Shown in pieces: positions 3,480-42,639 of a stretch of 64,000 nt of DNA. How positions within the stretch are numbered: position 1 is the first letter of the stretch; each line of letters starts with the position of its first letter. Under the pieces are notes generated by a model, which searched no databases, was not told the origin of the DNA, and was given only the letters and a program-made list of their open reading frames with translations. The DNA is from Treponema primitia ZAS-2 (GTDB taxonomy: Bacteria > Spirochaetota > Spirochaetia > Treponematales > Breznakiellaceae): contig NC_015578.1 of NCBI RefSeq assembly GCF_000214375.1, positions 682,001-746,000 on the forward strand, read 5' to 3'. Position numbers and translations under genes: made by a program.

Positions 3480-3842
3480 TCATTTTTTAAGGATTTTGCC
3501 GTTCAGATCCGCCAAATTTTTAAGCACATTCCGGGCAAAAACCCGGACCTCGGGTATAAGCTGGTTATAAAAGTCAATTATTTCCTTTTCGTCCTTTTGC
3601 CGGGTCTCCACATCTTCCTGGGTAATAAACATATTCCCTTCCCCTGCCCTGAGCCATACCGGGTTAACTGAAAACGTGGAGGAAATAAGCCTGATATGGC
3701 GGTCATTTACGGTACGCCGGGATTTTTCGAGTAGCGCTACTTGGGAGCGGGAAACAGAAATCTCTTTACCAAAGTCCAGTTGACTAAGGTTCAGCTTTTT
3801 CCTCAATTCCAAAAGCCTACTATTAATTGATCCCTTGTTCAT
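3480..3842 (-). CDS. XRE-family transcriptional repressor (phage cI-like)
   Basis: 120 residues. Residues 8-65 form a helix-turn-helix of the XRE/Cro type (LRKKLNLSQLDFGKEISVSR, then QVALLEKSRRTV), followed by VNPVWLRAGEGNMF, a motif common in phage-type repressors. The rest is charged and probably mediates oligomerisation. It is transcribed divergently from the small gene at 3937, and a perfect palindrome sits in the promoter between them, so it probably represses that promoter and perhaps its own. It may be an orphan prophage regulator or the control gene of the region to its right. Confidence 0.85.
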   Translation of the reverse strand: MNKGSINSRLLELRKKLNLSQLDFGKEISVSRSQVALLEKSRRTVNDRHIRLISSTFSVNPVWLRAGEGNMFITQEDVETRQKDEKEIIDFYNQLIPEVRVFARNVLKNLADLNGKILKK

Positions 3843-26067: not shown

Positions 26068-26140
26068 CGGGTAATAGCGCAGCTGGTAGCGCGCTTGGTT
26101 CGGGACCAAGAGGTCCCCGGTTCGAATCCGGGTTGCCCGA
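26068..26140 (+). tRNA. tRNA-Pro (CGG)
   Basis: CGGGTAA pairs with TTGCCCG, discriminator A. The anticodon arm is CTTGG-TTCGGGA-CCAAG, anticodon CGG; the T-arm is CCCGG-TTCGAAT-CCGGG. CCA is not encoded. The 5' end abuts a terminator T-run; the 3' end runs straight into the tail-repeat array. Confidence 0.93.
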
Positions 26141-26611
26141 CAAAAGTGATTCTTCAACCAAAAAAAGCCGGATTCGAACCGGGGACCAGGACCCTCTAAA
26201 AGGCGATTCAATGAGCCTTTTAGAGGGTCGCGAAGCTGGACCAGTTGCGCAGCACGAATCCGGGTTGCCCGACAAAGTAAACATTCAACCAGTAAAGGCC
26301 GGATTCGAACCGGGGACCAGGACCCTCTAAAAGGCGATTCAATGAGCCTTTTGAAGGGTCGCGAAGCTGTAACCAGCAGCGCCGCCAGAATCCGAGATGT
26401 GCGACACATGTGAGAAGCTCTGAGCCAGAGGGTTGCCCGACAAAACGAGCCTTTTGAAGGGTCGCGAAGCTGTAACCAGCAGCGCCGCCAGAATCCGAGA
26501 TGTGCGACACATGTGAGAAGCTCAGATTCAAGAAGGTTGCTCGACAAAACGAGCCTTTTAGAGGGTCGCGAAGCTGACCCAAGTTGCGCAGCACGAATCC
26601 GGGTTGCCTGA
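26141..26611 (+). repeat. tRNA-Pro tail-repeat array
   Basis: Four further copies of the tRNA 3' tail (GGGTTGCCCGACA-like) end at 26272, 26440, 26544 and 26611. Unit 1 is: AT-rich linker; CCGGATTCGAACCGGGGACC (26168-26187), exactly antisense to the D-distal T-arm of the tRNA just upstream; a 15-bp perfect hairpin GACCCTCTAAAAGGC / GCCTTTTAGAGGGTC (26190-26229); then a sense copy of the T-arm and acceptor end. Unit 2 repeats this with a partly altered hairpin. Units 3 and 4 are shorter and lack the antisense part. Units 2 and 3 share a long block containing GATGTGCGACACATGTGAG. Confidence 0.85.
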
Positions 26612-39933: not shown

Positions 39934-39994
39934 CTATATAACTATATGGTGTACCGGGGGATCGGTCAACGAGAGGGGGGGAAGCTGGGAAAGC

Positions 39995-40282
39995 TTCCAG
40001 CCCGCGGTTTGACCCTGACGGGGCCATCCATGGCCCCTTTTCTTCCCTTCGGTCAGCGGGTCAAACCGAGTTCGATTCTCCTAGGGAAATTTTTTTTATG
40101 TAATACTTTTTTCTAGCCCCTAGGAGAATCGAAGCTTCCAGTCGGCAACATCCTGTTGCCTCCTTCCAGCCCGCGGTTTGACCCTGGCGGGGCCATCCAT
40201 GGCCCCTTTTCTTCCCTTCGGTCAGCGGGTCAAACCGAGTTCGATTCTCCTAGGGAAATTTTTTTTATGTAATACTTTTTTC
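39995..40282 (-). repeat. tRNA-Glu tail-repeat array, two units
   Basis: The period is exactly 169 bp; the proximal unit (40114-40282) and the second (from about 39995) are nearly identical. Listed in the plus orientation: GAGTTCGATTCTCCTAGG (40068-40085, 40237-40254), the antisense T-arm; stem GGTTTGACCC / GGGTCAAACC (40006-40015 with 40058-40067); hairpin GGGGCC-ATCCAT-GGCCCC (40020-40037, 40189-40206); in the proximal unit, hairpin GGCAAC-ATCCT-GTTGCC (40144-40160) in a 35-nt module (40135-40169); and a sense copy of the tRNA 3' end (40114-40132). The distal unit has a different hairpin where the 35-nt module would be. Confidence 0.85.
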
Positions 40283-40354
40283 TAGCCCCTAGGAGAATCG
40301 AACTCCTGTTTAAAGATTGAGAATCTTTTGTCCTAACCGTTAGACGAAGGGGCC
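40283..40354 (-). tRNA. tRNA-Glu (CTC)
   Basis: Acceptor GGCCCCT with AGGGGCT (first pair G-U), discriminator A. The anticodon arm is AAAGA-TTCTCAA-TCTTT, anticodon CTC. The T-arm is AGGAG-TTCGATT-CTCCT. The 3' end continues into the tail-repeat array. Confidence 0.9.
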
Positions 40355-41647: not shown

Positions 41648-42470
41648 CAGGATAAGGGAGGATTCGACCTTCCAAGGTTCGGCATCCTGCCTCACCTTTC
41701 CAGGCGGGGTTTTTGCTAAACCCGCCCTCCTGGCGGTTTGCCCTCCGAAGCTTGCGCTTCTGCGGGCCGCAAAAACCCGTTCGAATCCTCAATTTTGTTC
41801 TGAATTTAAGATTTTTTTACCAAATGAGGAATCAGTCGTACTTATTTGATTTTTTTCCCCAGGGAGGATTCGACCTTCCAAGGTTCGGCATCCTGCCTCA
41901 CCTTTCCAGGCCGGGGTTTTTGCTAAACCGCCCTCCATGGCGGTTTGCCCTCCGAAGCTTCGCTTCTCCGGGCCCGCAAAAACCCGTTCGAATCCTCAAT
42001 TTTGTTCTGATTTTACGATTTTTAACCAAATGAGGATTCAGCCGTACTTATTTGATTTTTTTCCCCAGGGAGGATTCGACCTTCCGGTCGGCAACGTCCT
42101 GTTGCCTCCCTCCAGGCCGGGGTTTTTGCTAAACCGCCCTCCATGGCGGTTTGCCCTCCGAAGCTTGCGCTTCTGCGGGCCGCAAAAACCCGTTCGAATC
42201 CTCAATTTTGTTCTGATTTTACGATTTTTAACCAAATGAGGATTCAGCCGTACTTATTTGATTTTTTCCCCAGGGAGGATTCGACCTTCCGGTCGGCAAC
42301 GTCCTGTTGCCTCCCTCCAGGCGGGGTTTTTGCTAAACCGCCCTCCATGGCGGTTTGCCCTCCGAAGCTTCGCTTCTGCGGGCCGCAAAAACCCGTTCGA
42401 ATCCTCGATTTGTTCTGATTTTAAGATTTTTTTACCAAATGAGGATTTAGATGTAACTATTCGATTTTTT
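41648..42470 (-). repeat. tRNA-Gln tail-repeat array, four units
   Basis: Four units, period 205-206 bp; the CCCC before AGGGAGGATTCGA begins at 41857, 42063, 42268 and 42473 (the last in the tRNA itself). Read with the tRNA, each unit has an A-rich linker, GAGGATTCGAAC (antisense T-arm), stem GGGTTTTTGC, hairpin GAAGC-TTGC-GCTTC or similar, hairpin AAACCGCC-ATGGAG-GGCGGTTT, the second half GCAAAAACCC, a variable module, and the tRNA end. The variable module is the 35-nt GGCAAC-hairpin form in the two tRNA-proximal units (42081-42115, 42286-42320) and a different GGCA-TCC-TGCC form in the two distal ones. Confidence 0.85.
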
Positions 42471-42541
42471 TTCCCCAGGGAGGATTCGAACCCCCACGAG
42501 CAGATCCAGAGTCTACCGTGCTACCATTACACAACCGGGGA
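42471..42541 (-). tRNA. tRNA-Gln (CTG)
   Basis: TCCCCGG pairs with CTGGGGA, discriminator A. The D-stem is GTGT/GCAC. The anticodon arm is GTAGA-CTCTGGA-TCTGC, anticodon CTG. The T-arm is GGGGG-TTCGAAT-CCTCC. The 3' end leads into the tail-repeat array. Confidence 0.9.
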
Positions 42542-42639
42542 ATGAGTTTAAATTACCGATAAGATAGTATAAGTTAGACGGTTTTTTGTCAAGTACCGTT
42601 TTGTTCTGTGATATACTAAAAATAGTGCCGGAGGCTGGT

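Follow-up and report, generated by a model that had tools for sequence, protein, structure and literature searches.

The short stretches antisense to the T-arm that lie directly downstream of tRNA genes in Treponema primitia ZAS-2 are one arm of a larger folded element; the original observation, made by a sequence-only reading of a 64,000-nucleotide stretch of this genome (hereafter the window), is real and much larger than first noted. The best overall explanation is probably a family of gene-less folded elements that insert at the T-loops of tRNA and tmRNA genes and restore the tRNA. That insertion takes place at the DNA level, at T55|C56, we regard as quite likely. The elements have a common anatomy, a fixed insertion point, arms specific for the host tRNA and a covarying structure, and they are patchy in presence and wide in distribution.

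The ZAS-2 genome is a single contig of 4,059,867 bp, and the stretches around all its tRNA genes were scanned. Of the 50 tRNA genes, 20 have, within 100 nt downstream, a run of 10 nt or longer that is antisense to the tRNA's own 3' third, whereas the same scan of the 100 nt upstream gave none (0/50). When the sequences of other tRNAs were used as query, 1.4 downstream runs were expected by chance, and together these counts exclude a chance origin. Across 114 element-bearing loci of ZAS-2 and its relatives, the antisense run averages 12.7 nt against the adjoining tRNA, as compared to 6.0 nt against tRNAs for other amino acids.

A unit follows its tRNA in a set order: a spacer of 0-76 nt, which often holds a terminator, the antisense T-arm, a non-coding body of about 100 nt, and finally a copy of the tRNA 3' end in sense orientation. 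Of the 115 first units across genomes, 101 have this sense copy, and in 93 of these 101 it is 18-19 nt long, extending from C56 of the T-loop to the 3' end. Units occur singly or in tandem, with at most four per array, and at some ZAS-2 tRNAs only a broken unit is left, without the distal copy. Bodies of family A are found at Glu, Gln, Met, Arg, Trp, Ser, Thr, Pro-tgg and other tRNAs, a second body type at Pro-cgg and Ala-ggc, and a third at Gly-gcc. No integrase gene lies inside the ZAS-2 units, which measure about 100-205 bp. Two further arrangements were seen: at a tRNA-Pro(tgg) gene (L060:1148-1372) one unit is nested in the terminal hairpin of another, and at L070 (G000:C1:1308400-1314800) three copies of tRNA-Leu(gag) stand about 1.1 kb apart, the middle one scoring just 31 bits as a tRNA.

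The window holds two units at tRNA-Glu, four at tRNA-Gln and a decayed array at tRNA-Pro. Each antisense copy leads into a folded body of about 70-110 nt, after which most units repeat the tRNA 3' end in sense orientation; these bodies and sense copies, and the frequent tandem arrangement of units at these three genes, were absent from the sequence-only reading. Its exact 20-nt complement at tRNA-Pro and its minimum of 12 nt at tRNA-Gln both stand, while the complement it gave as 18 nt at tRNA-Glu is present but is 19 nt long. On the forward strand, the host gene tRNA-Pro(cgg) (26068..26141) has its insertion point between T55 (26122) and C56 (26123), and its 18-nt 3' end, from C56 to the discriminator (26123..26140), is repeated as the last part of the unit. 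The antisense T-arm of unit 1 (26168..26187), an arm of stem P1, complements 26112-26131 exactly over 20 nt and is followed by a folded body of family B (26188..26254), with a 15-bp hairpin (GACCCTCTAAAAGGC / GCCTTTTAGAGGGTC), and by the distal sense copy (26255..26272). A second antisense copy (26299..26318) starts unit 2, whose body is degenerate, and decayed tandem remnants occupy 26341..26611, with a final 3'-end copy at 26594-26611. Right after this array is a short ORF (window:26773-27105) whose second half consists almost only of Asp, Glu and Phe codons.

The two other arrays lie on the reverse strand and are made of family A units. Behind tRNA-Glu(ctc) (40283..40354), unit 1 (40117..40256; 129 bits with model R1) has an antisense arm at 40237-40255, complementary to 40287-40305, and a distal sense copy of the tRNA 3' end at 40114..40131; unit 2 (39953..40087) carries a second copy of the antisense sequence (40068-40086) and has no distal copy. 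Behind tRNA-Gln(ctg) (42470..42542) there are four units: unit 1 (42270..42411; antisense arm 42395-42406, 12 nt complementary to 42480-42491; distal copy 42266-42283), unit 2 (42065..42208; distal copy 42061-42078), unit 3 (41859..42002; distal copy 41855-41872) and unit 4 (41653..41795; distal copy decayed). The antisense 12-mer recurs at 42192-42203.

The fold of family A is branched. Stem P1 is formed by the antisense arm paired with the distal sense copy, P2 contains the tandem G-A motif CCGACC/GGGAGG and an AAAA stretch, P3 is a GC-rich hairpin around ATGGAT, and P4 has GGA/GGA and GA/GA loops. Compensatory change was observed in 31 of the 44 pairs among nine copies. When 95 distinct copies from many genera were aligned, 91.7% of cells could pair, 40 of the 44 pairs varied on both sides, and the covariation score was 0.648, as compared to 0.168 for shuffled and at most 0.116 for slid partners. 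The alignment had been fitted to the model, which gives these figures an advantage. Of the standard pairs, G-U accounts for 1.8-1.9% in P2-P4 and about 5% in P1; in tRNA acceptor stems at the same loci the share is 11.3%. Such strong covariation almost without G-U points to selection on folded DNA, and the scarcity of G-U suggests a DNA fold in the cell. Low G-U might also stem from quasi-palindromes repaired by template switching or from RNA hairpins of very high stability. In a search against Rfam, only tRNA reached its gathering score in the window, and no family but tRNA did so in ten more loci. At two loci (L050:1472-1515 and L119:1680-1740) units are broken within hairpin P3 and fused to unrelated sequence, an integrase-like fragment and the stretch preceding a small ORF, as though deletion or insertion were promoted at hairpin tips.

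The edges of the insertion were mapped by comparing tRNA and distal copy in 84 single-unit loci. Identity is 8% at T54 and T55 and 89-100% over C56-N73; past the tRNA end, identity to the distal flank is 71% and then about 50%. This profile sets the left edge exactly at T55|C56 and shows the right edge as a drop at the end of the tRNA gene. About half of the spacer positions thus still match, and 27 of 70 single-unit loci have spacer in common past the tRNA; this may reflect a duplicated target or what is left of tandem units. The sharp edge at the tRNA end would fit either imported 3' ends or selection or gene conversion acting on the copy. Two simple models were considered and set aside. Pure target-site duplication is favoured by the shared spacers of some loci; the fall in identity past the tRNA gene and the differing terminators of successive units (L233, L248, L252) contradict it, while a pure travelling cassette is at odds with spacers that are common only to the closest pairs of bodies at different tRNAs. 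The sequence-only reading had offered, as its second proposal, that the antisense copies are palindromic TTCGAA targets of a recombinase. Insertion does fall exactly at T55|C56 in the T-loop, with the tRNA 3' end duplicated as in tRNA-targeted integration, but the antisense copy is an arm of the inserted folded element and not the tRNA's own palindrome; this proposal was nonetheless closer than the RNA switch with which it was paired.

To follow the distribution, a covariance model of the body was built from nine copies. It matched 20 places in ZAS-2, 65 of 99 genomes of the order (53 of the 74 sampled genera) and 101 of 297 genomes of the class. Just upstream of 138 of the 152 aligned matches is a complete tRNA or tmRNA gene on the same strand, the other 14 lying behind a partial tRNA 3' half or at contig ends. 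Hosts include tRNAs for most amino acids as well as tmRNA, and one body family is common to many isoacceptors and tmRNA. Directly behind tmRNA genes, units were seen at four loci (L140, L188, L325 and L349), with up to three in tandem. A DNA pattern scan extended the range to Omnitrophota, Deltaproteobacteria and a few other assemblies, with lower model scores (about 22-55 bits; one viral contig 64) and with several matches again behind tRNAs. BLAST gave no match to phages and one marginal match to plasmids, and two viral contigs match the model, one of them strongly (L419). One Deltaproteobacteria MAG (L351) has two near-identical units (2124-2262 and 3743-3815) around toxin-antitoxin-like genes, the first behind a tRNA/tmRNA-like 3' end and the second not; these are possibly gene-bearing cassettes, and the second copy may be an ectopic duplication.

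Related genomes differ in which sites are occupied. At tRNA-Gln(ttg)-rplY, a unit is present in ZAS-2, G017 and G021, and absent in about 20 other readable genomes, including G003 and G005 of the same genus. The tRNA-Trp site is empty in G004, again of the same genus, and in G005 holds only a stub of the antisense arm. This stub (L190) matches the tRNA 3' end of G004 (L191) and not the present tRNA of G005, suggesting that the tRNA was replaced after insertion. At tRNA-Met, a single Treponema genus shows filled, empty and apparently deleted sites side by side, and the terminators of successive units differ. The nearest neighbour of a body was found at the same tRNA in another genome in 22 cases (6.6 expected) and at a tRNA for the same amino acid in the same genome in 18 (0.5 expected), most of these from serine tRNA clusters; neighbours at a different tRNA of a different genome numbered 92 (128 expected). 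Spacers track bodies in the closest pairs only; otherwise, like bodies at different tRNAs have unlike spacers. From these comparisons, units appear to have been gained and lost over evolution, with bodies occurring at different tRNAs, and the patchiness, seen between species and not strains, suggests that they are mobile. Partial tRNA halves with displaced units (L083, L119, L099) look like the right ends of islands integrated in a tRNA already bearing a unit. The L083 island, of about 44 kb (G000:C1:3414866-3458900), lies in tRNA-Leu(cag), with the intact tRNA and an integrase-like gene at one end and a partial tRNA 3' half and displaced unit at the other.

The first proposal of the sequence-only reading was an RNA switch, by which the co-transcribed tail would pair with the T-arm and block folding or maturation of the tRNA until processing or changed conditions. 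This is possible in silico: folding the precursor with and without the tail took the T-stem pairing probability from 0.58 (Pro) and 0.98 (Glu) to 0.00, and at equilibrium the T-stem is abolished by the tail in Pro and Glu and by the whole unit in Gln. Moreover, the antisense arm is complementary specifically to its own tRNA, no terminator was reported by the scan in the gap from tRNA-Pro to the antisense arm, and inspection by eye revealed none after Glu or Gln. However, by a strict rule at least 31 of 114 loci have an intrinsic terminator in the gap between tRNA and antisense arm, and in those loci the tail would therefore rarely be transcribed with the tRNA. Most relatives have the same tRNA without a unit, which is dispensable to the tRNA in most species; G-U pairs are scarce in the stems; the distal T-arm copy would compete for the antisense arm; and a switch does not need an 18-nt copy that begins exactly at C56. 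The switch is thus not supported across loci and seems quite improbable as an account of the family, although it may have a local effect in ZAS-2.

It also appears unlikely that the units never moved, the repeats instead arising beside tRNAs through replication template-switching and tandem slippage, being kept perfect by quasi-palindrome correction and passing down vertically. Such an origin would agree with compensations that are Watson-Crick only, with the tandem arrays and with the excess of nearest-neighbour bodies at the same tRNA (22 against 6.6), but it does not predict that a single conserved body structure should recur behind many tRNAs and tmRNA across many families, with sporadic cases in other phyla, nor a fixed T55|C56 edge or a tRNA-Gln site that is empty across many genera. 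Two known kinds of engine were weighed as well. Target-primed reverse transcription at a T-loop nick, giving a SINE-like retroelement with variable target duplications, would explain why the left edge is fixed and the extent of duplicated flank variable; we consider it scarcely probable, as low G-U is not expected of the fold of a template RNA, and reverse transcriptase (PF00078) had no match in the complete ZAS-2 genome nor, ZAS-2 included, in 17 of the 23 element-bearing genomes. Least credible of all is that the units are REP/REPIN-like palindromes mobilised by a Y1 (RAYT/IS200-type) transposase: they are non-coding folded palindromes and ZAS-2 has Y1 genes, but their location is strictly at tRNAs and not in scattered intergenic copies, and 9 of the 23 element-bearing genomes, one of them complete (G033), had no Y1 match. 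Y1 insertion is not known to duplicate a tRNA end, which we also counted against it. The lack of reverse transcriptase matches and of Y1 matches in these genomes speaks against the respective engines.

For the DNA-level insertion element that we prefer, the following mechanism is proposed. A gene-less miniature element would insert in a tRNA or tmRNA gene at the single point T55|C56, after which the portion from C56 to the discriminator would exist both before and after the element, the front tRNA keeping an intact 3' end. Since the 3' portion lies on both sides, the tRNA gene would survive and more tandem units could follow. A single strand would fold into one long structure, composed of P1 (the antisense arm with the distal copy) and a body of P2/P3 and P4 with recurrent tandem G-A loops. 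P1 would present a T-arm-like duplex, corresponding to the right half of the T-arm, to a putative site-specific recombinase supplied in trans, and units might insert and be lost much like folded attC cassettes. By analogy, such folded-site recombination is a possible but tentative mechanism. More speculative, and rather doubtful at present, is the idea of a second integron-like system that lacks genes and has tRNA genes as its universal docking sites. In it, folded single-stranded DNA cassettes would enter the T-loop of almost any tRNA, bringing or duplicating a working 3' end, with the antisense arm matched to each new host.

The search for the enzyme linked no recombinase to the units: the sole one adjoining a unit, in G048, can be put down to its lying near tRNA-Asp by chance, and apart from this tRNA-linked case the IntI-like genes (19 of 20) had no adjoining unit by model R1. 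An IntI-like recombinase as the unit enzyme was rejected as unproven, being confined to a single locus in ZAS-2, having attC-like repeats of its own that differ from the units, and occurring also in genomes without unit matches. The ZAS-2 gene (L271:5220-6407; G000:C1:2031219-2032406) encodes an IntI-like tyrosine recombinase of 395 aa that has an additional N-terminal region, and is followed by ORFs that each end in attC-like repeats (7214, 8663, 9795); this locus is a probable integron. Split matches to the integron-integrase family, similar to this gene, were seen in about 30 relatives.

Few sites are used for docking by large islands and phages as commonly as the 3' ends of tRNA genes. In the literature searched, which comprised open-licence papers only, we found no description of elements such as these, and the family looks to be undescribed, resembling miniature insertion elements and not a tRNA switch. 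Gene-free elements with a conserved, DNA-like fold that use the T-loops of tmRNA and most tRNA types within a large bacterial class would represent a novel sort of minimal element for movement or recombination. They could explain the repeated assembly breaks and the variation beside spirochaete tRNA genes, and they readily lend themselves to comparative study of the evolution of folded single-stranded DNA sites beyond integrons.

Several known systems share some of these features. Casposon or Cas1-type integration at tRNA 3' ends also duplicates the tRNA 3' end, but involves large, gene-bearing elements with short, fixed duplications. REP/REPIN and other miniature repeats are, like the units, short, non-coding, palindromic and multi-copy, but the units differ in occupying one position of tRNA and tmRNA genes, in their tRNA-specific arm and tRNA 3'-end copy, and in lacking a consistently present Y1 gene. 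As in tRNA-targeted integrative elements, insertion is in a tRNA gene with its 3' end duplicated, yet the units encode no integrase. The crossover in attC sites lies at G|TTRRRY within the core GTTRRRY, whereas the edge of the units is GTT|CRAN in the tRNA T-loop, and T54 and T55 are missing from the distal copy. Integron cassettes nevertheless resemble the units in forming tandem arrays at one site, in their imperfect palindrome, in a folded strand that rebuilds the duplex core, and in conserving structure over sequence. The attC site of cassettes acts as a single-stranded folded structure (PMC9668308). Conservation of the unit as a structure is borne out by its strong Watson-Crick covariation, and folding as DNA in the cell would complete the parallel. 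Unlike attC cassettes, the units have no gene, a branched body instead of one hairpin, and arms matched to the host tRNA; IntI-like genes lie far from them rather than adjacent, and the integron-like locus of ZAS-2, with its own attC-like repeats, is separate. The islands at ssrA in Dehalococcoides insert in the middle of the T-loop and leave a 20-bp repeat (PMC3146451), but these are kilobases long, encode a serine recombinase and use one target gene (PMC3146451), in contrast to gene-less units of about 100-200 bp at many tRNAs. Taken together, the nearest working analogues of the units would be folded attC cassettes and T-loop islands: the units seem to work most like attC cassettes and island-type elements, while belonging to neither.
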